A model generated the notes under the pieces. That model ran no database searches. It was given only the letters and a program-made list of their open reading frames with translations, and was not told the DNA's origin. The translations under genes and the position numbers were made by a program. Shown here piece by piece: positions 621 through 19,784 of a stretch of 35,732 bases of DNA (the first letter of the stretch is position 1; each line of letters begins with the position of its first letter). The stretch is from Candidatus Brocadiaceae bacterium (GTDB lineage Bacteria; Planctomycetota; Brocadiia; SM23-32), in assembly GCA_012728835.1 (NCBI GenBank), contig JAAYEJ010000049.1, forward strand, positions 1-35,732, in the 5' to 3' direction.

Positions 621-2609
621 ATGGGCGATCGCGACGACTCTGGGCATCCGGTCCCGCTGCGGGAGGTCTGCGCCACCTGCCGGGCGGCCTGCCCCGTGCA
701 CACCGACACGCAGGCGTACGTGCAGCTTATCACCCAGGGCCGCTATGAGGAGGCGTTCGAGAAGATCCGGGAGTTCAACCCCTTCCCGTCCGTCTGCAGC
801 CTCATCTGCCATCACCCGTGCGAACAGGCCTGCCGGCGCGGCGACGTCGACGATCCCGTGGCGCTGCGGCATCTGAAGCGCTTCGCCGTCGAACAGGCGC
901 GGCCGTACAGGGAGCGCCGCCGCCGCCGGGCGCCCATCACGCAGCCGCAGACGGTCGGGGTGATCGGCGCGGGGCCCGCCGGTCTGACGGCCGCGCATGA
1001 CTGCGTGGCGGCCGGTTACGCGGCGACCGTCTACGACGCGCACGACCGCCCGGGCGGCCTGCTGGCCCATGCGGTGCCCGCCTACCGGCTGCCGCCGGAC
1101 GTGCTGGAGCTGGATCTGGACGACATCCGCGCGCTGGGAGTCCAGGTCGTCTGCGGCACGGCCGTGGGCCGCGATGTGTCCCTGGACGAGGTCCGTGCGC
1201 GGCACGACGCGGTGGTTCTGGCGGTGGGCCTGTCGCGCAGCCGCACGCTGCCGCTCACGAACGGCGACCACCCGGACGTCCTGGGCGCGCTGGAGTTCCT
1301 GCAGGCCGTGGCCGCAGGCGCGCGCCCGGCGGTGCCGGCGGACGTGCTGGTGGTCGGAGGCGGCAACGTAGCGGTGGACGCGGCGCGCACCGCCCTGCGG
1401 CTCGGCGCGCAGGCTGTGCGGATGGTCTGTCTGGAGGATGAGTCCGAGATGCCGGCCTGGGACTGGGAGTGCCGCGAGGCGCTCGAAGAAGGCATCGGGA
1501 TCGTCCACCGGCGCGGGCCCACGGAGGTGGTCGTCCGTGGCGGCGCGGTGGCGGGGCTGGTCGTGCGGGAGGTGGAGCGCGTCTTCGACGACGACGGCCG
1601 ATTCGCACCGACCTACTTCGACGACCGCCGCAGCACGATCGACGGGCAGATGGTGATCCTGGCCGTCGGGCAGCAGGCGGACCTGGGCCTGCTGGACGGG
1701 ACCGAGGTCGAGCGGCAGGGGGCCGGGCGCATCCGCTTCGACCGGGCGACCATGGCGGCCTCCGTGCCGGGCGTCTTTGCCTGCGGGGAGGTTGTGGCGG
1801 GGCCCGGAAGTGCAATCGAGGCCGTCGCCGACGGGCACCGGGCCGCCCGCGCCGTGCTCCGGTACCTTCGGACGGGCCGGGTGGAGCCGGTGGCCGAGGA
1901 GGAGGCCGGCGAGGAGGTCGGCCCGCTGACCGAGGACCTGATCCGGCACCTCCGGCGCGCCGAGCGCGTCGCGATGCCGACACTCTCGGCCGAGGCGCGG
2001 CGGAGGAGCTTCGCCCGGCTGGAACTCGGGTACTCCGAGCGCGATGCGCTCCGCGAGGCCTGGCGCTGCCTCTCGTGCACGGCGGGCGCACAGGTGGACG
2101 AGGCGAAGTGCGCCGCCTGCCTGACGTGCCTGCGGGTCTGCCCCTTCGGCGTGCCGATGGTGGACGACGTGGCCCTGATGACGTCGGACATCTGCCAGGC
2201 CTGCGGGCTGTGCGTCGCGGAGTGCCCGGCCGGCGCCATCCGCATCGGCCGACACGCCGTGGGCGACATCGCCGGGCGCATCGCGGAGCTGCTGAAGCGT
2301 GCCGACCGCCCCGTCACGTGCGTGGAGATCGCGTGCGCGCGGGGGGCGGAGTCGCGCGTCGCGCTGCAGGACCACGTGCACGCCCGCAACGGCGACGAGG
2401 TCGGTCACATTGCGGTGGCCTGCGCGGCCCTGGCGGACGAAGTGGACATGATGAAGCCGTTCGAGTTCGGGGTGCGCGAGGTCGTCGTGCGCATGTGCGA
2501 CGACTGCCGCTATCGGGGGGCCGGCGACCGCCTCTCGAAGCGCGTGGAGCGAACGAAGCGGTTGCTGGACGCCGCGGGGGTCGGCGGCGAGCGCCTCCGC
2601 CTTCTCTGA
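621..2609 (+). CDS. GltD-like FAD/NAD(P) oxidoreductase fused to 2x[4Fe-4S] ferredoxin and FlpD-like domain
   Basis: A 662-residue cytoplasmic flavoprotein with four modules. Residues about 15-100 form the cysteine-rich Fer4_20 module of glutamate-synthase small chains (CATCRAACPVH; CSLICHHPCEQAC). Residues about 110-440 are the two-dinucleotide oxidoreductase: FAD motif VGVIGAGPAGL, NAD(P)H motif VLVVGGGNVAVDAARTA, and a closing VFACGEV...GSAIEAVADG motif. Residues about 495-545 carry two classic CxxCxxCxxxCP clusters. The last 100 residues resemble the FlpD/MvhD domain that passes electrons to heterodisulfide-reductase-type proteins (CDDCRYRG, then a KRVERTKRLL helix). Start ATG has GGAAG 6 nt upstream. 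It is followed 24 bp later by metV and then metF, so it most likely feeds NAD(P)H electrons to methylene-THF reductase. It is not glutamate synthase: no large subunit is nearby. The exact electron path is inferred. Confidence 0.85.
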   Translation: MGDRDDSGHPVPLREVCATCRAACPVHTDTQAYVQLITQGRYEEAFEKIREFNPFPSVCSLICHHPCEQACRRGDVDDPVALRHLKRFAVEQARPYRERRRRRAPITQPQTVGVIGAGPAGLTAAHDCVAAGYAATVYDAHDRPGGLLAHAVPAYRLPPDVLELDLDDIRALGVQVVCGTAVGRDVSLDEVRARHDAVVLAVGLSRSRTLPLTNGDHPDVLGALEFLQAVAAGARPAVPADVLVVGGGNVAVDAARTALRLGAQAVRMVCLEDESEMPAWDWECREALEEGIGIVHRRGPTEVVVRGGAVAGLVVREVERVFDDDGRFAPTYFDDRRSTIDGQMVILAVGQQADLGLLDGTEVERQGAGRIRFDRATMAASVPGVFACGEVVAGPGSAIEAVADGHRAARAVLRYLRTGRVEPVAEEEAGEEVGPLTEDLIRHLRRAERVAMPTLSAEARRRSFARLELGYSERDALREAWRCLSCTAGAQVDEAKCAACLTCLRVCPFGVPMVDDVALMTSDICQACGLCVAECPAGAIRIGRHAVGDIAGRIAELLKRADRPVTCVEIACARGAESRVALQDHVHARNGDEVGHIAVACAALADEVDMMKPFEFGVREVVVRMCDDCRYRGAGDRLSKRVERTKRLLDAAGVGGERLRLL

Positions 2610-11503: not shown

Positions 11504-12466
11504 GTGCAGTACAGAAGACTGAGCGGGACGGAACTGGATGTCTCGGTGATCTGCTTCGGGGGCATGACGGCGGGTTCGTACGGCACCTTCGGACACCAGG
11601 ATGACGAGGCGTCCATGCAGGCCGTGCGGGCGGCGCTCGAGGAGGGCATCAACTTCTTCGATACCGCGGAGGGCTACGGCGACGGCCACTCCGAGGACGT
11701 GCTCGGGCGCGCGCTGCAGGGCCGCCGGGAACAGGTGGTGATCGGCACCAAGGTCTCGCAGCGCCACCTGGACCGGGACCAGATGGCACGGGCGTGCAAC
11801 CGGAGCCTGCGGCTGCTGCGCACGGACTACCTGGACATCTACCACGTTCACTGGCCCAACCACGACGTCCCGTTTGCCGACGTCGTGGAACGGCTGGAGA
11901 GGTTGCGCGAGGCCGGCAAGGTGCGCTACTGGGGTGTGTCCAACTTCGGCCGTCAGGACCTGACCGATCTGCTGGCATGCGGCCGTCCCGCCGTCAACCA
12001 GGTGCCCTACAGCCTCCTGTGGCGGATTATCGAGCACGAGGTGCGGCCGCTCTGCATCGAGAACGGCGTGAGCATCATCTGCTACAGCCCGCTGGCCCAG
12101 GGGCTGCTGACCGGCAAGTTCGGCCGTCCGGACGAGGTGCCGCCGGAGCGGGCGCGCGCCCGCTACATGGCCGAAGCGGCGGAGCGTTCGTTCAAGGTGA
12201 TCGGCCTGCTGCGGGAGGTCAGCGACGAACTCGGCCAGCCGATGGCCGACGTGGCGCTGGCGTGGGCGCTGGCGCAGCCGGGCATCGCGTCCGTGCTGAC
12301 CGGGGTGCGGAGCGACGAGCAGGTCCGGCAGAACGCCCGCGCGGCCGACCTGACGCTGCCCGCCGCCGCCCTCGAGCGCCTCACGCAGGGCTCGGAGGCG
12401 CTCAGACAGGAGCTGGGCACGGACCCGGACATGTGGAACGCCGGGGAACGGTCGCGGTATCGCTGA
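11504..12466 (+). CDS. aldo/keto reductase
   Basis: A 320-residue NAD(P)H-dependent (alpha/beta)8 oxidoreductase. The catalytic tetrad is visible: Asp53 and Tyr58 (FFDTAEGYGDG), Lys83 (VIGTKVS) and His116 (IYHVHWP). The cofactor-binding C-terminal part includes YSPLAQGLLTGKF and a VLTGVRSDEQVRQN segment. The start is GTG with AAAGG about 8 nt upstream. It is followed 35 bp later by a Gfo/Idh/MocA oxidoreductase, which suggests a joint role in modifying a sugar or polyol. The substrate is unknown. Confidence 0.92.
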   Translation: MQYRRLSGTELDVSVICFGGMTAGSYGTFGHQDDEASMQAVRAALEEGINFFDTAEGYGDGHSEDVLGRALQGRREQVVIGTKVSQRHLDRDQMARACNRSLRLLRTDYLDIYHVHWPNHDVPFADVVERLERLREAGKVRYWGVSNFGRQDLTDLLACGRPAVNQVPYSLLWRIIEHEVRPLCIENGVSIICYSPLAQGLLTGKFGRPDEVPPERARARYMAEAAERSFKVIGLLREVSDELGQPMADVALAWALAQPGIASVLTGVRSDEQVRQNARAADLTLPAAALERLTQGSEALRQELGTDPDMWNAGERSRYR

Positions 12467-12501
12467 GGGCCCCGGTCACGGGGGCCGGGAGGAGGCGGCG
12501 C

Positions 12502-13575
12502 ATGGGTGTGCCGAGGATCGCGCTGGTCGGCGGGGGGACGTTCGGCCTGATGCACCTGCGGGCGTTCCGCCAGTTCCAGCACGATGGGCGTTGTGAGTTC
12601 CTCGCGCTGGCGGATGTGAACGAGCGCCTCCTGGAGGAGCGCGCCCGGGAGTTCGGGATGCGCGCCTACGCCGACTACCGGGAGATGCTCGAACGCGAGC
12701 GGCCGGACGCGGTCGCCGTCGCCACGCCGGACCACCTGCACCGCGAGATCGCCCTCGCCGCCCTTGCGCAGGGCGCCCACGTGTTCGTCGAGAAGCCCAT
12801 GGACACGACGGTGGAGGGCTGCACCGCCATGATCGAGGCCGGGCGGGACGCCGGCGTCCTCCTTCAGGTGGATTTCCACAAGCGGTACGACCCCTATCAT
12901 GCCGAACTTCGGCGGAGTGCCCGGCAGGGGAAGCTCGGCGAGATCGAGTATGCGTATGCCTGGATGGAGGACCGGATCGAGGTCCCCCGCTCATGGCTTG
13001 CGGCCTGGGCGGGCGAGTCCTCGCCGGCCTGGTTCCTCGGCATCCACATGGTGGACCTGGTCTGCTGGATCACCGGGTGCGGGGGGAGGCGGGTGCATGC
13101 GACGGGCGTGCGCAAGAAGCTCCGTTCGCTCGGGATCGACGCCTGGGACTCGGTCTGCTTCTCGGTGGAGATGGACCGGGACGTCACGTTCCAGTGCCAG
13201 ACCTCCTGGGTGCTGCCCGACGCATTCGAGGGGATCGTCAACCAGGGCATCCGCGTGGTGGGCACCGAGGGCCTCATGGAGGTCGACTCGCAGGACCGCG
13301 GCGCGCGGTGCTGCTTCGCCGCCGACGGGCGCATGGCCACCCCCAATCCGGGTTTCTTCCGCGAGGGGCGCGACCCGTGTGGCCGCGCCGTCTACGGTGG
13401 ATACGGCATCGACGCGATCCGGCATTTTGTCGACAACGTGTCGTTCCTGATGGACGGCGGGGCGCTGTCGGACCTGGCGGGGACCTACCCGAGCGGCGAA
13501 GACGGTCGGGAGGCGACCCGCATCGTGGCGGGCGTCCATGACGCCCTGCAGCGGCACGCAGCCGTGGACCTGTAG
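12502..13575 (+). CDS. Gfo/Idh/MocA family oxidoreductase
   Basis: A 357-residue NAD(P)-dependent sugar or inositol dehydrogenase-like protein. The N-terminal Rossmann fold opens with IALVGGGTFGLMHLRAF. The family EKP motif appears as VFVEKPMD at about residue 97, after AVATPDHLHREIALAAL. The C-terminal alpha/beta domain contains an HMVDLVCW helix with the His usually near the active site. GGGAGGAGG precedes the ATG by about 6 nt. It is probably co-transcribed with the aldo/keto reductase and runs up to the convergent GHMP kinase gene, 11 bp away. The substrate is unknown. Confidence 0.9.
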   Translation: MGVPRIALVGGGTFGLMHLRAFRQFQHDGRCEFLALADVNERLLEERAREFGMRAYADYREMLERERPDAVAVATPDHLHREIALAALAQGAHVFVEKPMDTTVEGCTAMIEAGRDAGVLLQVDFHKRYDPYHAELRRSARQGKLGEIEYAYAWMEDRIEVPRSWLAAWAGESSPAWFLGIHMVDLVCWITGCGGRRVHATGVRKKLRSLGIDAWDSVCFSVEMDRDVTFQCQTSWVLPDAFEGIVNQGIRVVGTEGLMEVDSQDRGARCCFAADGRMATPNPGFFREGRDPCGRAVYGGYGIDAIRHFVDNVSFLMDGGALSDLAGTYPSGEDGREATRIVAGVHDALQRHAAVDL

Positions 13576-13586
13576 CGCCGGGGCGG

Positions 13587-15239
13587 CTACTGCGGCATCA
13601 GCAGGCCCGCGCCTCCGACGGGGCTCACGGTCTGAGCCGCCGCCGGCAGGCCGCGCGGTTCGTAGTAGCCGCGTTCCAGGTGTCGGACGAGGTTCGCCGC
13701 CGCCGCCTTCTCGACGACGGCCACGATGCAGCCGCCGAGCCCCGCGCCGACCAGCCCGGCGCCCATCACCCCGTCCGTCTCCAGGGCCAGGTCCACCAGG
13801 ATGTCCAGCTCCTCGATGCTGGCTCCGTAGCCGCCGGGCTGCCGCCAGAGCCGGGCGCGCTCCGTGCGGTCGGACTCGCCCGAGTCCGCGTCGGCGATCA
13901 GGTCGTCCAACATCCGGTCGGAGACGGAGTTGTCGTAGGCGACCCGGCCGCTGCCGGCCCGCCGGGTGACGCGGTCGCCGTCGTGCGAGATGGTCATCAT
14001 CTGGCCGAAGGCCGCGACGTCGCCGCGGTTCAGCACGTCGGGGGCCATGGCAGCACGCGCGCACTCGCTGACGCCGTAGAGGCAGACGCCGCGCAGCGGG
14101 TATCCGCCGGCCGGTTCGGCGTGGCTTCCGAAGGTGCGTTCGAGAGCCGGGCGATCGTCGGGGAGCATCCGGAGGATCTCGCCTCGCGTCACGCGTTCGG
14201 GAACGGCCTGGAGCATGCGGTAGATGTCGGCCTCGCCCACGCCGAGGCGGGCGGGGTTCAGGTCGCGCAGGTGCTCCAGGCGGGGCGCCATCTCGGGGAA
14301 GCGCCTGCGGACCATCAGGAAGCCGATCACGTAGGACGACACGAGCTGGTTGAACATGTCGCGCACGGCCGAGGACTTCTCCGCCTTGCGGCCGCAGTTG
14401 GCCATGACGACGACGTAGTCGGAGGGGAAGGGCACCCAGTCCACGGAGAACGGGTGGGAGCCGATGTGCATGATGTGTCCGAGCCGGCCGAACTTGATCG
14501 CCGAGTGGTCGCCGCTGCCGCCGCGCGTGCCGATGTACCATTCGGCCAGCCCGCAGACGTCCACCAGGTCGCGGTCGGCGATCGGGAGGCCGTTGATGTG
14601 CCTGCATGCCTCGGCGGCGGCGACGACGAGCGCGGAGGAACTGCTCAATCCGGCGGCCGGCGGGATCAGGCCGTGGACGACGACGTTCATCCCGCGCAGA
14701 GGCGGATCGAATCGGCCTTCGTCCGTCGTGTTCAGGTGCTGAAGGTAGAGCACGGCGGACCTGACGTAGTCGGACCACGCGCCCGCACGGCCGGCACGGC
14801 GCCGCTCCTGCGCGCGCGCCTGCGTCCAGGCGTCCCAGTCGGGGATCTTCGTCCGGGGCAGTTCGTCGCCGATCGCGAAGGCGTCGTCCGGGTACCGGGC
14901 CGGGTCCGTGTTGGCCAGGACCACGCGGTCGTCGTCCCGGGGCTCGGCGATCAGGAGCAGTTCGCTGATGGCGATGGGGTTGACGTGACCGCCCCGGTGA
15001 TCGACGTGCATGCCGAGCAGGTTGACGCGGCCCGCGGAGCGCACGACCAGCGCGGGGGCCGCCGTCCCGTACGCGGCGGCGAACGCCTCCAGCGCCCGGC
15101 GGAACTCGGCCGCCTTCCCGGCCAGCAGGGCCTCGTCATCGCCGTACAGGTCGCGCAGTGCGCCGAGACATCCCCCGCCCGAAGTCCCCAGAGCGGCCAG
15201 CCACTCCGACACCGTCCGAACGCCCGTGATCCGCTTCAA
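13587..15239 (-). CDS. galactokinase-like GHMP kinase
   Basis: A 550-residue GHMP-superfamily sugar kinase, longer than typical GalK (about 390). It has the three GHMP motifs: GRVNLLGMHVDHRGGHVN (galactokinase signature), PPAAGLSSSSALVVAAA (phosphate-binding loop) and GAGLGGCIVAVV near the C-terminus. The conserved Glu of the GEHTDY signature is Met (GMHVDH). That residue touches the sugar in galactokinases, so the substrate may not be galactose. The catalytic-type Asp is kept in GSGDHSAIKFG. The start is a TTG with GGGGG 7 nt upstream; no ATG fits. It lies 117 bp after nagA in one operon, so an amino sugar such as GalNAc or GlcNAc is a reasonable guess. Confidence 0.82.
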   Translation of the reverse strand: MKRITGVRTVSEWLAALGTSGGGCLGALRDLYGDDEALLAGKAAEFRRALEAFAAAYGTAAPALVVRSAGRVNLLGMHVDHRGGHVNPIAISELLLIAEPRDDDRVVLANTDPARYPDDAFAIGDELPRTKIPDWDAWTQARAQERRRAGRAGAWSDYVRSAVLYLQHLNTTDEGRFDPPLRGMNVVVHGLIPPAAGLSSSSALVVAAAEACRHINGLPIADRDLVDVCGLAEWYIGTRGGSGDHSAIKFGRLGHIMHIGSHPFSVDWVPFPSDYVVVMANCGRKAEKSSAVRDMFNQLVSSYVIGFLMVRRRFPEMAPRLEHLRDLNPARLGVGEADIYRMLQAVPERVTRGEILRMLPDDRPALERTFGSHAEPAGGYPLRGVCLYGVSECARAAMAPDVLNRGDVAAFGQMMTISHDGDRVTRRAGSGRVAYDNSVSDRMLDDLIADADSGESDRTERARLWRQPGGYGASIEELDILVDLALETDGVMGAGLVGAGLGGCIVAVVEKAAAANLVRHLERGYYEPRGLPAAAQTVSPVGGAGLLMPQ

Positions 15240-15356
15240 CGGCGTGCCCCCTGATGCACGTGGGAGAGAGGGTCCAACCGGCCTGACACACGCAGCATGC
15301 GTCCTCCACAGGTTCCGCCGAGCCGGCGGCGCCCCGCAGGGCGTCCGCACGTCCGC

Positions 15357-16659: not shown

Positions 16660-16736
16660 GGGCGGTTAGCTCAGTTGGTTAGAGCGCCAGCTCGACAAGC
16701 TGGAGGCCACTGGTTCGAGTCCAGTACCGCCCACCA
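16660..16736 (+). tRNA. tRNA-Val (GAC), with encoded CCA
   Basis: A full cloverleaf of 77 nt: acceptor stem GGGCGGT/ACCGCCC, D arm GCTC/GAGC, anticodon stem CCAGC/GCTGG, T arm ACTGG-TTCGAGT-CCAGT, discriminator A and encoded CCA. The anticodon loop reads TCGACAA, giving anticodon GAC for valine codons GUC/GUU. The base before the anticodon (position 33) is C, whereas nearly all elongator tRNAs have U. All stems are fully paired, so a degenerate gene seems unlikely. Confidence 0.95.
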
Positions 16737-16781: not shown

Positions 16782-16811
16782 TTGACCCCGCGCGGGCCCG
16801 GTGCCTACCAT
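16782..16811 (+). promoter_or_regulatory. promoter of lon-like gene, predicting a leaderless mRNA
   Basis: TTGACC (16782-16787), 18-bp spacer, TACCAT (16806-16811). A transcription start 7 bp after the -10 box falls at 16818, the A of the ATG chosen for the Lon homologue. No Shine-Dalgarno sequence precedes that ATG. Confidence 0.5.
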
Positions 16812-16817
16812 GCTGGT

Positions 16818-19148
16818 ATGACCGCCCAGAAGGCCCGGACAGAGGTGCTTCCCGTGCTGGCGCTGCGGGGAACGGTGGTGTTCCCCGGCGCATCCGTGCG
16901 CCTGCGCGTGGGGCGCCGGCGCTCCCTGGCGGCATTGGAGGCGGCCGCCGCCGGCGACGGCCGCGTGGTCCTGGTGGCCCAGCGTCGCGCGGAGACCGAG
17001 GCGCCTTCGCTGGACGACCTTCATCCGGTCGGCGTCATCGCCGCTGTGCGGCCCGGGCCCGAACTCGAAGGCGGGAAGGTCCGCCTGATCATCGCCGACG
17101 GTCTGGCGCGGTGTCGCCTCTGCGCGCCGGCCCGGGAAGAGCCCTTTCTGGCCGCCCGTGTCGAGTCCCTCGCGGGGGCGTCGGCGGAGGTCTCCTCATC
17201 CCTCGCCGGGGAGGTGCGGACGCTGTTCCTCTCCGGCCCGCACCGGGAGGAGCGCACGGCGCTGCTCAGCGTGTTCCCCGAGGCGGCCGACGTCGGCTTC
17301 CTCATCGCGTCGCAACTGGATCTGTCGCCGGATGACGCACAGGCCCTGCTGTCCGAACCCGACGCCGGGAACCGCTACCGCATGCTGCTGCCCGTCCTGC
17401 GTGCCGAAGAGCAGATCGCCCGCGTGGGCCGCGACCTGTGGAAGCAGGCCGTGGCCCGCGCGGCGGGCGGCCGCGAGCGGCATCTGCGCGAGCGAAAGGC
17501 CGCCATCGAGCGCGAACTGGGCGAACTGAGCGGCCGGGGGGCCGACCTGCAGGAACTGCGCGAACGTGTGGCGGCGGCCGGTCTGTCCGAAGAAGCCCGC
17601 GCCGAGGCCGAACGCGAACTGGCGCGGATGGAGAGGACGGCGCCCGGGCAGCCCGAATACGGCGTGGCCGAGGACTACCTGGAGTGGCTGACATCCCTGC
17701 CCTGGCGGCGGACCGAGACTGCCGAACCGGACCTGCGCCGGGCCCGCCGGATCCTGGATCGCGATCACCACGACCGGGACGAGGTGAAGGAACGGGTGCT
17801 GGAGTACCTGAGCGTCCGCCGGCTCCGGCGGGGGCGGCAGGGGGCGTTGCTCTGCCTGGTGGGTCCGCCCGGCGTGGGCAAGACGAGCATGGGCCGCTCG
17901 ATCGCCGAGGCGACCGGCCGCCGGTTCTACCGCGTGGCCCTGGGCGGCCTCCGCGACGAGGCGGAGGTCCGCGGCCACCGCCGCACCTACCTGGGCGCCC
18001 ACCCCGGCGCCATCCTTCGGGCGATGCGGCGCGTCGGCGTCTCCAACCCCGTCATCATGCTCGATGAGGTCGACAAGCTCGGCGAGGGGCCGATGGGAGA
18101 CCCTGCCGGAGCGCTGCTGGAGGTGCTGGACCCGGACCAGAACGCCGCCTTCGTCGACCGTTACCTCGCCGTGGGCTTCGACCTCTCGGACGTCCTGTTC
18201 ATCGGCACGGCGAACACGGCCCTGACGATTCCCGGACCGCTCCTGGACCGCCTGGAGGTGATCGAGCTGCCGGGGTACACGACCGAGGAGAAGGCGGTGA
18301 TCGCGCGGGGCTACCTGGTGCCGCGCCAGGTCGAGGAGACCGGGCTGGACCCCGCCGGCGTCGCGTTCGACGACGAGGCCGTCGAGCTGCTGATCACGCA
18401 CTACACGCGTGAGGCCGGCGTGCGCGAGCTGGAGCGGCAGATCGCGGCGGTCTGCCGCAAGCTCGTGCGGCGAGGCGAGGGGCGCGCGAGCTGCCCGGCG
18501 CGGGTGAGGCGGCGGCTGGTGGCCGACCTGCTGGGGCCGCCGCCGTACCTGGCCGAGGACTGGGACCGCGCCTGTCGGCCGGGAGTCTGCGCCACGCTGG
18601 CCGTCGGAGACGGCGGCGCCGAGCTGATGTTCATCGAGGTCCTGCGCGTGGACGGCTCGGGCCGCCTGGCGGTGACCGGACGGGTGGGGGCGGTGCTCAG
18701 AGAGAGCGCCTCCCTGGCGCTCGGCTACTGGAAGGCGCGGGGGGAGCGGTTCGGGCTGGCCGGCGACCGCTTTGCGCAGGGCGACTTCCACGTGCATCTG
18801 CCCGGTGGCTCAGCGCCGAAGGACGGCCCGGCCGCCGGCCTGCCGCTGGCGCTGGCGTTCGCGTCCCGGCTGTTCGACCGGAGCCTGCCGCCGGGACTGG
18901 CCGCACTGGGCGAGATCACCCTGCACGGCCGCGTCCTGCCCGTCGGCCGGATCGGCGAGCGGCTCGCCGGCGCCCGGCGGGCGGGGATCTCGCACGTGCT
19001 CCTGCCGGAGCGGAACCGCGTCGAGGTCGAGTCGTGCCGGGATCGCCGGCCGCCGGAGGGCCTGGAGATCACCTACGTCTCATCCGTGGAAGAGGCGCTC
19101 GAGACCGCCCTGGCGGTCGTTCCCCAGGGCCGGCCCGCCCCGGCCTGA
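16818..19148 (+). CDS. lon: Lon-family AAA+ protein lacking the protease Ser-Lys dyad
   Basis: A 776-residue homologue with complete Lon architecture: N-terminal LON substrate-binding domain (LPVLALRGTVVFPGASVRL, residues about 8-190), coiled-coil linker, AAA+ module with Walker A GPPGVGKTSMGRS, Walker B VIMLDEVDKL and an LLDRLEVIELPGYT segment, and a Lon protease domain (residues about 580-765). In the protease domain the usual PKDGPSAG is PKDGPAAG: the nucleophile Ser is Ala672. The usual GG(L/I)KEK is GRIGER: the catalytic Lys is Arg715. Their 43-residue spacing equals that of Ser679/Lys722 in E. coli Lon, so the alignment is firm. It should still bind and unfold proteins using ATP but not cut peptide bonds by the known mechanism. 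The ATG at 16818 fits the promoter; an upstream ATG (16773) lies before the -35 box. rdgB follows 24 bp later. Confidence 0.93.
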   Translation: MTAQKARTEVLPVLALRGTVVFPGASVRLRVGRRRSLAALEAAAAGDGRVVLVAQRRAETEAPSLDDLHPVGVIAAVRPGPELEGGKVRLIIADGLARCRLCAPAREEPFLAARVESLAGASAEVSSSLAGEVRTLFLSGPHREERTALLSVFPEAADVGFLIASQLDLSPDDAQALLSEPDAGNRYRMLLPVLRAEEQIARVGRDLWKQAVARAAGGRERHLRERKAAIERELGELSGRGADLQELRERVAAAGLSEEARAEAERELARMERTAPGQPEYGVAEDYLEWLTSLPWRRTETAEPDLRRARRILDRDHHDRDEVKERVLEYLSVRRLRRGRQGALLCLVGPPGVGKTSMGRSIAEATGRRFYRVALGGLRDEAEVRGHRRTYLGAHPGAILRAMRRVGVSNPVIMLDEVDKLGEGPMGDPAGALLEVLDPDQNAAFVDRYLAVGFDLSDVLFIGTANTALTIPGPLLDRLEVIELPGYTTEEKAVIARGYLVPRQVEETGLDPAGVAFDDEAVELLITHYTREAGVRELERQIAAVCRKLVRRGEGRASCPARVRRRLVADLLGPPPYLAEDWDRACRPGVCATLAVGDGGAELMFIEVLRVDGSGRLAVTGRVGAVLRESASLALGYWKARGERFGLAGDRFAQGDFHVHLPGGSAPKDGPAAGLPLALAFASRLFDRSLPPGLAALGEITLHGRVLPVGRIGERLAGARRAGISHVLLPERNRVEVESCRDRRPPEGLEITYVSSVEEALETALAVVPQGRPAPA

Positions 19149-19172: not shown

Positions 19173-19784
19173 ATGCGTCTGCTGCTCGCGACGAGGAACC
19201 CGCACAAGCAGAGGGAGTTGGGCGAACTCCTTGCCGACCTGCCCGTGGAGGTCCGCACGCTGGCCGACTGCCCCCACGCGCCCGACGTGGATGAGGACTG
19301 TCCGACCCTGGAGGAGAACGCCGCCAAGAAGGCCTCCGAGGTCGCCGCGGCCTGCGGCGGGTTCGCCATGGCCGACGACTCCGGGCTGTTCGTCGACGCG
19401 CTGGACGGGCGCCCCGGCGTCCTGAGCGCCCGGTACGCCGGCCCCAATCCGACCTCGGCTCGCCTCTGCGCACGGCTCGTGGCCGAACTGCAGGATGTGC
19501 CGGACCAGGCCCGGACCGCCCGCTTCCGGTGCTGCATTGCCATGGCGGACCCGGACGGGCGGATCATACTGACCGCTTCGGGGCACGTCGGCGGGCGCAT
19601 CCTGCGGGAGATGCGCGGGACCGGGGGGTTCGGCTACGATCCCGTCTTTCTCTACGAGCCCTGGGGCCGCACGTTCGCCGAGGTCCCGCCCGCCGAGAAG
19701 AACGCCGTCAGCCACCGTGCGCAGGCGTTGCGTGCGTTTCGGGACGGGCTGGAGCGGTGGCTGCGGGGCGGCAACGGGCGTTGA
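19173..19784 (+). CDS. rdgB: XTP/dITP diphosphatase (HAM1/RdgB)
   Basis: A 203-residue house-cleaning pyrophosphatase that removes dITP, dXTP and XTP from the nucleotide pool. Family motifs are LLLATRNPHKQRELGELL at the N-terminus, FAMADDSGLFVDALDGRPG (metal-binding Asp pair), SARYAG, GTGGFGYDPVF and a C-terminal KNAVSHRAQALRAF. AAAGGAGA lies about 8 nt before the ATG. The 24-bp gap from the Lon homologue suggests one transcript. Confidence 0.95.
   Translation: MRLLLATRNPHKQRELGELLADLPVEVRTLADCPHAPDVDEDCPTLEENAAKKASEVAAACGGFAMADDSGLFVDALDGRPGVLSARYAGPNPTSARLCARLVAELQDVPDQARTARFRCCIAMADPDGRIILTASGHVGGRILREMRGTGGFGYDPVFLYEPWGRTFAEVPPAEKNAVSHRAQALRAFRDGLERWLRGGNGR

Follow-up and report, generated by a model that had tools for sequence, protein, structure and literature searches.

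A candidate lineage-specific Lon pseudoprotease in Planctomycetota with an apparently ordered loss of its protease site and a RadA-like dead site, probably a remodelling ring or a Lon regulatory subunit

Introduction

The gene lon2, which lies in the 35,732-nucleotide stretch of DNA analyzed here (hereafter "the window"), raises the question of what a Lon protein does if it can no longer cut. An initial annotation, made from the sequence alone, described a Lon that had lost both residues of its catalytic dyad while keeping the LON domain, the ATPase motifs and the rest of the protease fold, and suggested selection for a new role rather than decay. Most work on chaperone roles of Lon that do not depend on proteolysis has used engineered Ser-to-Ala mutants. 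A clade that is naturally without the cutter but has kept the motor would separate both Lon jobs within one family, and would reveal which functions of Lon repay retention once proteolysis is gone. Lon homologues that are not peptidases form an established class (PMC9569914); we found no description of a full-length LonA paralogue clade in which the motor is kept and the site replaced, in a search that covered little of the subscription literature.

Results

A full-length LonA paralogue with a conserved motor

The gene and its two terminal domains occupy these positions of the window:

16818-19148 (+): lon2, a full-length LonA paralogue of 776 aa, predicted to be protease-dead (open reading frame, translation, HMMER, TIGR00763)
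16845-17399 (+): LON substrate-binding N domain, aa 10-194 (Pfam PF02190, 97.7 bits)
18504-19112 (+): Lon_C (S16) protease-type P domain, aa 563-765, catalytically degenerate (Pfam PF05362, 161 bits)

The 776-aa reading spans positions 16818-19145. E. coli Lon (6u5z) aligns with it from end to end (574 bits, HMMER), the TIGR00763 model "lon" (endopeptidase La) scores 670 bits against a cut-off of 608, and the LonA domain set is found in one chain, with LON, AAA, Lon_lid and Lon_C (PF02190, PF00004, PF22667, and PF05362) all exceeding their Pfam cut-offs.

Three orthologues, 53-59% identical, were identified within the same family of uncultured Planctomycetota, in Planctomycetota bacterium CSMAG_1167 (G006), Planctomycetes bacterium SM23_32 (G003) and Candidatus Brocadiaceae bacterium B1Sed10_231 (G005). 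Every member comes from a metagenome-assembled genome, that of the window (G000) comprising 3.07 Mb in 82 contigs at 96.9% completeness. The four copies (here called dead) were compared residue by residue with 39 canonical Lons. Within the motor, the following residues are conserved:

17862-17885 (+): Walker A GPPGVGKT, aa 349-356, with K355 and T356 invariant in dead and canonical Lons
17988-17990 (+): pore loop-1 Tyr391 (E. coli Tyr398), Tyr in 4/4 dead and 39/39 canonical Lons
18063-18068 (+): Walker B Asp416-Glu417, invariant in the four dead and 39 canonical Lons
18213-18215 (+): sensor-1 Asn466 (E. coli Asn473), invariant (role per PMC9569914)
18249-18251 (+): arginine finger Arg478 (E. 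coli Arg484), invariant (role per PMC9569914)
18423-18425 (+): sensor-2 Arg536 (E. coli Arg542), invariant (role per PMC9569914)

The Pfam matches and the invariant Walker residues thus agree with the earlier reading that the LON domain, Walker A and Walker B are kept, and conservation of this kind supports an ATPase that is intact in its residues. In pore loop-2, the Phe is replaced by Pro in the window copy.

A protease site replaced beyond the dyad

Counterparts of Ser679 and Lys722 were placed by residue counting in the 6u5z alignment. This confirmed that the nucleophile is Ala672 and the catalytic lysine Arg715, as first proposed, and added three replacements that had not been mentioned, at T704, G718, and G600:

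18831-18833 (+): Ala672 for nucleophile Ser679, codon GCC, A/S/A/S among the orthologues
18960-18962 (+): Arg715 for catalytic Lys722, codon CGG, Arg in 4/4 dead and Lys in 39/39 canonical Lons
18906-18908 (+): Leu697 for active-site Thr704, L/L/V/V in the dead clade and Thr in 39/39 canonical Lons
18948-18950 (+): Arg711 for Gly718, Arg in 4/4 dead and Gly in 39/39 canonical Lons
18594-18596 (+): Thr593 for Gly600 in the first P-domain strand, Thr in 4/4 dead and Gly in 38/39 canonical Lons

Sequence error is very unlikely, since the three independently assembled orthologues share Arg722 and likewise differ from canonical Lons at 704, 718, and 600. Lys722 is the second K of GGLKEK, so an alternative assignment to the first one, which would pair the catalytic lysine with Gly713, was rejected.

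The other Lon P domains that were read, 93 distinct sequences, all have Ser, Thr, and Lys at positions 679, 704, and 722. Thr470 of B. subtilis LonBA adjoins the catalytic Ser (PMC9569914), and from the constant 25-residue spacing we infer that Thr704 is its counterpart. The first P-domain strand of Lon contributes to the ligand-binding site (PMC9569914). Around the nucleophile, Asp676 is changed to Glu and Pro678 to Thr in three of the four dead copies; the residue preceding the Ser679 position is thus Pro671 in the window copy and Thr in the three orthologues, a Pro directly before the catalytic Ser being a mark of the LonA-type P domain (PMC9569914). None of the dead copies has changed at His665, His667, Glu614, or Glu706 (E. 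coli numbering). Given the residues now at its active site, the lon2 protein should be protease-dead.

The claim that the rest of the protease fold is well kept is borne out only in part. Canonical Lons have 38 invariant positions in the protease domain; the dead copies all keep 24 of these, and at least one copy departs at each of the remaining 14, which lie mostly near the active site. Of the 67 such positions in the AAA core, 61 are kept and six changed (Fisher p = 0.0013). In an AlphaFold2 model built from a 28-sequence alignment, most 10-residue blocks of the P domain have pLDDT values of 74-95, the low spots being 661-670 (55), which is the loop preceding the nucleophile position, and 741-750 (63). 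Lon structures rank best among the PDB matches to the model; the whole-chain TM-scores are low (about 0.45-0.57), which fits the uncertain domain arrangement of the model (pTM 0.54). The model indicates that the fold of the P domain is retained.

Distribution and coexistence with a normal Lon

lon2 is present in four of the nine family genomes examined and was not found in the other five (G001, G002, G004, G007, and G008), nor in one examined genome from the other family of the order. Four of these five (G002, G004, G007, and G008) carry rdgB, the gene that follows lon2 (see below), without an adjoining lon2; rdgB itself was not found in G001, and a full-length Lon was not found in G002 (82% complete). 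A wider distribution was rejected, as no further member appeared in a draw of 392 Planctomycetota genomes and two conserved dead-P-domain peptide patterns, scanned against 84,980 GTDB genomes, recovered only the three known orthologues and canonical Lons. A DNA pattern for PKDGPAAG matched one other of the 392 genomes (G273, contig C159); this candidate for a second S679A Lon in the phylum was dismissed as a chance match, since the sole Lon match of that genome sits on contig C82.

The genome of the window also encodes a normal Lon with a Ser/Lys dyad, located on contig C51 (lon2 is on C49), and intact-dyad Lons are likewise encoded in G003 and G005. A normal Lon was not found in G006, which is only 70% complete. 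Replacement of the normal Lon by lon2 was rejected because G000, G003, and G005 carry both. Identity between the two paralogues is 43-46% over the whole protein, rising to 61% in the AAA core and falling to 27% in the N domain. In the tree, the four lon2 copies group together with 100% support, as a single clade whose stem is long (0.6 changes per site).

Probable order of active-site loss

At positions 679, 704, and 722 the window copy reads A/L/R, G006 S/L/R, G003 A/V/R and G005 S/V/R. The Ala/Arg pair, with which a search for orthologues had been suggested, therefore is no shared signature of the clade: Arg722 is found in all four copies, but Ala679 only in the window and G003. Nor was a close relative with an intact dyad found, every orthologue being without Lys722 and Thr704.

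Arg722, Arg718, Thr600, and Leu/Val704 are common to all four copies, so these changes are probably ancestral, and Lys722 and Thr704 were probably replaced in the common ancestor of the lon2 copies. Ser679 is kept in G006 and G005, and the sisters G006 and G003 (support 91) differ at this position; the Ser was thus most simply lost twice, and looks to have been lost later than the other residues. This A/S/A/S pattern makes the loss of the dyad look ordered, without a joint two-residue event. Two independent dyad losses had been proposed; the residues are better described by an ancestral loss of Lys and Thr, after which Ser679 varied freely. The root of the four-copy clade has a support of 20. 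PKDGP precedes the lost Ser only in the window copy (18816-18838), with EGT in the other three, and canonical Lons place G005 as the outgroup, in conflict with this PKDGP/EGT signal on the root of the dead clade.

Selection on lon2

We estimated dN/dS by the Nei-Gojobori method (NG86), the ratios being approximate due to GC-rich codon bias. Values for the AAA core, the P domain and the overall protein were 0.19, 0.34, and 0.31 for lon2 of G006 versus G003, 0.35, 0.39, and 0.45 for lon2 of the window versus G006, and 0.09, 0.28, and 0.27 for the canonical Lons of G000 versus G003. The estimated ratio is below 1 in every lon2 domain. Compared with canonical Lon in matched genome pairs, lon2 has three to four times the dN in the AAA core, which indicates a looser constraint on the lon2 motor, and two to three times the dN in the P domain. 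Correspondingly, identities among dead orthologues are 74-83% in the AAA domain and 49-70% in the P domain, versus 90-94% and 74-82% among canonical pairs. The faster evolution affects the whole lon2 protein and is not peculiar to the P domain. Ratios below 1 together with a dN that is raised throughout point to purifying selection on the whole protein, weaker but real. The G003 copy has lost about 35 codons and is frameshifted past the Arg722 helix, near the C-terminus (L037:2600-2950), and its expected C-terminal residues resume in another frame; this lesion is either decay or an assembly error.

Genomic context and a promoter-like element

The immediate surroundings of lon2 contain:

16660-16736 (+): tRNA-Val(GAC), directly upstream of lon2
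16782-16811 (+): promoter-like TTGACC-N18-TACCAT, sigma-70-like, ending 6 nt before the lon2 ATG (16818)
19173-19784 (+): rdgB/HAM1 (XTP/dITP diphosphatase), the next gene after a 24-nt gap (TIGR00042 160 bits, PF01725)

The tRNA-Val(GAC) precedes lon2 in two genomes, that of the window and G006. G006 also has a counterpart of the promoter-like element, TTGACC-N18-TAAGAT, at an equal distance from the ATG (L036:4883-4919). An element 6 nt from the ATG in two genomes suggests that lon2 has its own promoter and a leaderless transcript, and a leaderless start is likely from these sequences. rdgB directly follows lon2 in 4/4 orthologue genomes. The neighbors of lon2 with matches are the tRNA-Val, rdgB, an EPSP synthase and an amidohydrolase; no BREX genes were found among the annotated neighbors.

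Discussion

Comparison with known systems

lon2 shares with the LonA protease (MEROPS S16, TIGR00763) full-length homology, domain order and identical AAA+ motor residues, but differs in the replacement of Ser679, Lys722, and Thr704 and in the changes of Gly718 to Arg and Gly600 to Thr. The closest likeness of its active site is to RadA, which also has a Lon-type P domain without the dyad. In the pneumococcal protein, Ala365 and Arg408 stand at the Ser679 and Lys722 positions, matching Ala672 and Arg715, and its P domain serves to scaffold the hexamer (PMC5512693). In the genomes that carry lon2, RadA proteins are encoded by separate genes with KNRFG, and their residues at the equivalents of 679, 704, and 722 are Ala, Val, and Arg. 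RadA differs from lon2 in having a RecA/DnaB-type motor, a C4 zinc finger and KNRFG, where lon2 has a LonA AAA+ motor and a LON domain. Descent of the lon2 P domain from a RadA-like one was considered and rejected: a RadA P-domain profile scores 33-49 bits on dead and 28-50 bits on canonical Lons and so fails to separate them, which makes the resemblance local to the active site. A RadA-style reversal of chamber charge was also rejected, as the net charge of the lon2 P domain shows no consistent shift. The parallel with RadA suggests that there may be a preferred route from a Lon-type active site to a purely structural one.

Other families have parted with one of two activities or with the protease motif. 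LonC, like lon2, is a Lon relative missing one of two activities, but there the ATPase is the activity that was lost and the protease the one retained (PMC9569914), the reverse of lon2. The FtsHi proteins of plant chloroplasts are AAA+ protease paralogues with the ATPase kept and the protease motif mutated, were selectively retained and take part in protein import (PMC8197885); unlike lon2 they belong to a zinc metalloprotease family, are membrane-bound and function in a eukaryotic organelle, so the analogy is functional only. BrxL of BREX phage defense, likewise an AAA+ protein, has a C-terminal domain of Lon type that lacks the protease active-site motif of Lon (PMC10164562), but its similarity to lon2 amounts to only 45-55 bits and is confined to the P domain; the BrxL model TIGR02653 gives 44.8 bits on lon2, against a cut-off of 628, over aa 587-739.

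A probable role without proteolysis and its alternatives

We consider it probable that lon2 is a pseudoprotease LonA paralogue retained as an ATP-driven unfoldase or chaperone, with the P domain as ring scaffold. According to this model, lon2 would be a duplicate kept alongside the normal Lon, with peptide-bond hydrolysis lost. Substrate would be bound via the LON domain and threaded through the pore with ATP, and the polypeptide would be released or held uncut, giving a remodelled product and no peptides; the P domain would act mainly as the base on which the ring forms, much like that of RadA. What we infer for lon2 is that it forms hexamers, hydrolyzes ATP, unfolds substrates and has a chaperone-like role. 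Engineered Lons behave in a comparable way: Borrelia Lon-1 S714A keeps ATPase and ATP-dependent anti-aggregation activity (PMC2777506), and aggregation is prevented by human LONP1 S855A but not by a Walker A mutant, so that ATP hydrolysis is needed and protease activity is not (PMC8368198). By analogy, lon2 looks like a natural equivalent of these Ser-less Lons. More broadly, we favor a lineage-specific bacterial Lon pseudoprotease with an ordered loss and a RadA-like dead site that serves either as a remodelling ring or as a regulatory subunit of Lon; if so, it would be a bacterial Lon counterpart of plant FtsHi and a mirror image of LonC.

The second of these roles, in which lon2 and the normal Lon assemble into mixed hexamers so that proteolysis is reduced or redirected, is less likely on its own but the main alternative. 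It is in keeping with the co-occurrence of both proteins in G000, G003, and G005 and with their identity, highest in the AAA core. Inactive subunits are known beside active ones in FtsHi/FtsH and ClpR/ClpP (PMC8197885, PMC7966870), and LONP1 S855A is dominant negative for TFAM degradation (PMC8368198). The location of the two genes on separate contigs and the 27% identity of the N domains argue against it. We regard as unlikely that lon2 is a relaxed duplicate becoming a pseudogene, with the dead site as the first damage. Its faster evolution compared with canonical Lon, the deletion and frameshift in G003 and its absence from five of nine family genomes would fit such a fate, but frames of about 770-780 aa have remained open in three of the four lineages despite the divergence of the orthologues, the ATPase residues are all kept and dN/dS stays below 1 in every domain. 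Moreover, positions 600, 718, and 722 are each fixed to one new residue in all four copies, a pattern not expected from drift, and the promoter-like element and the rdgB linkage are shared. The orthologues argue for selection over decay, as the initial annotation had held.

A cryptic or altered protease, relying on Arg715 or another residue of a rebuilt site, or on slow Ser-Arg hydrolysis in the orthologues with Ser679, is very unlikely. Retention of Ser679 in G006 and G005 makes weak Ser-Arg hydrolysis compatible with those two sequences, the kept His665, His667, Glu614, and Glu706 could belong to such a site, and in one paper the dyad appears as "S679, K/R722" (PMC1560137). At the nucleophile position, however, the window copy carries no Ser; every copy has replaced Thr704 and Gly600, and three of them Asp676 and Pro678. 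Also very unlikely, and the least probable reading, is a DNA- or nucleoid-acting motor like RadA or BrxL, or a protein tied to the adjacent nucleotide-cleansing enzyme RdgB. RadA and BrxL do act on DNA and have Lon-type C-terminal domains without a protease site (PMC5512693, PMC10164562), and lon2 adjoins rdgB in all four genomes, but gene adjacency by itself is weak. Outside the P domain, lon2 is a LonA protein, down to its N domain and its pore-loop Tyr. The P domain shows no shift to a strongly positive net charge, and its overall similarity to RadA lies within the range of canonical Lons.

Other genes of the window

Also near lon2, a Gfo/Idh-type dehydrogenase is encoded at 11794-13575 (+), and a 68% identical homologue lies near lon2 in G006. 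On the opposite strand to this dehydrogenase, 13587-15350 (-) encodes a GHMP/galactokinase-like kinase of about 587 aa. The product of 621-2609 (+) combines a glutamate-synthase-small-subunit-like NAD(P)-binding module, fused to 4Fe-4S and FlpD-type domains, with a C-terminal similarity to HdrA2.
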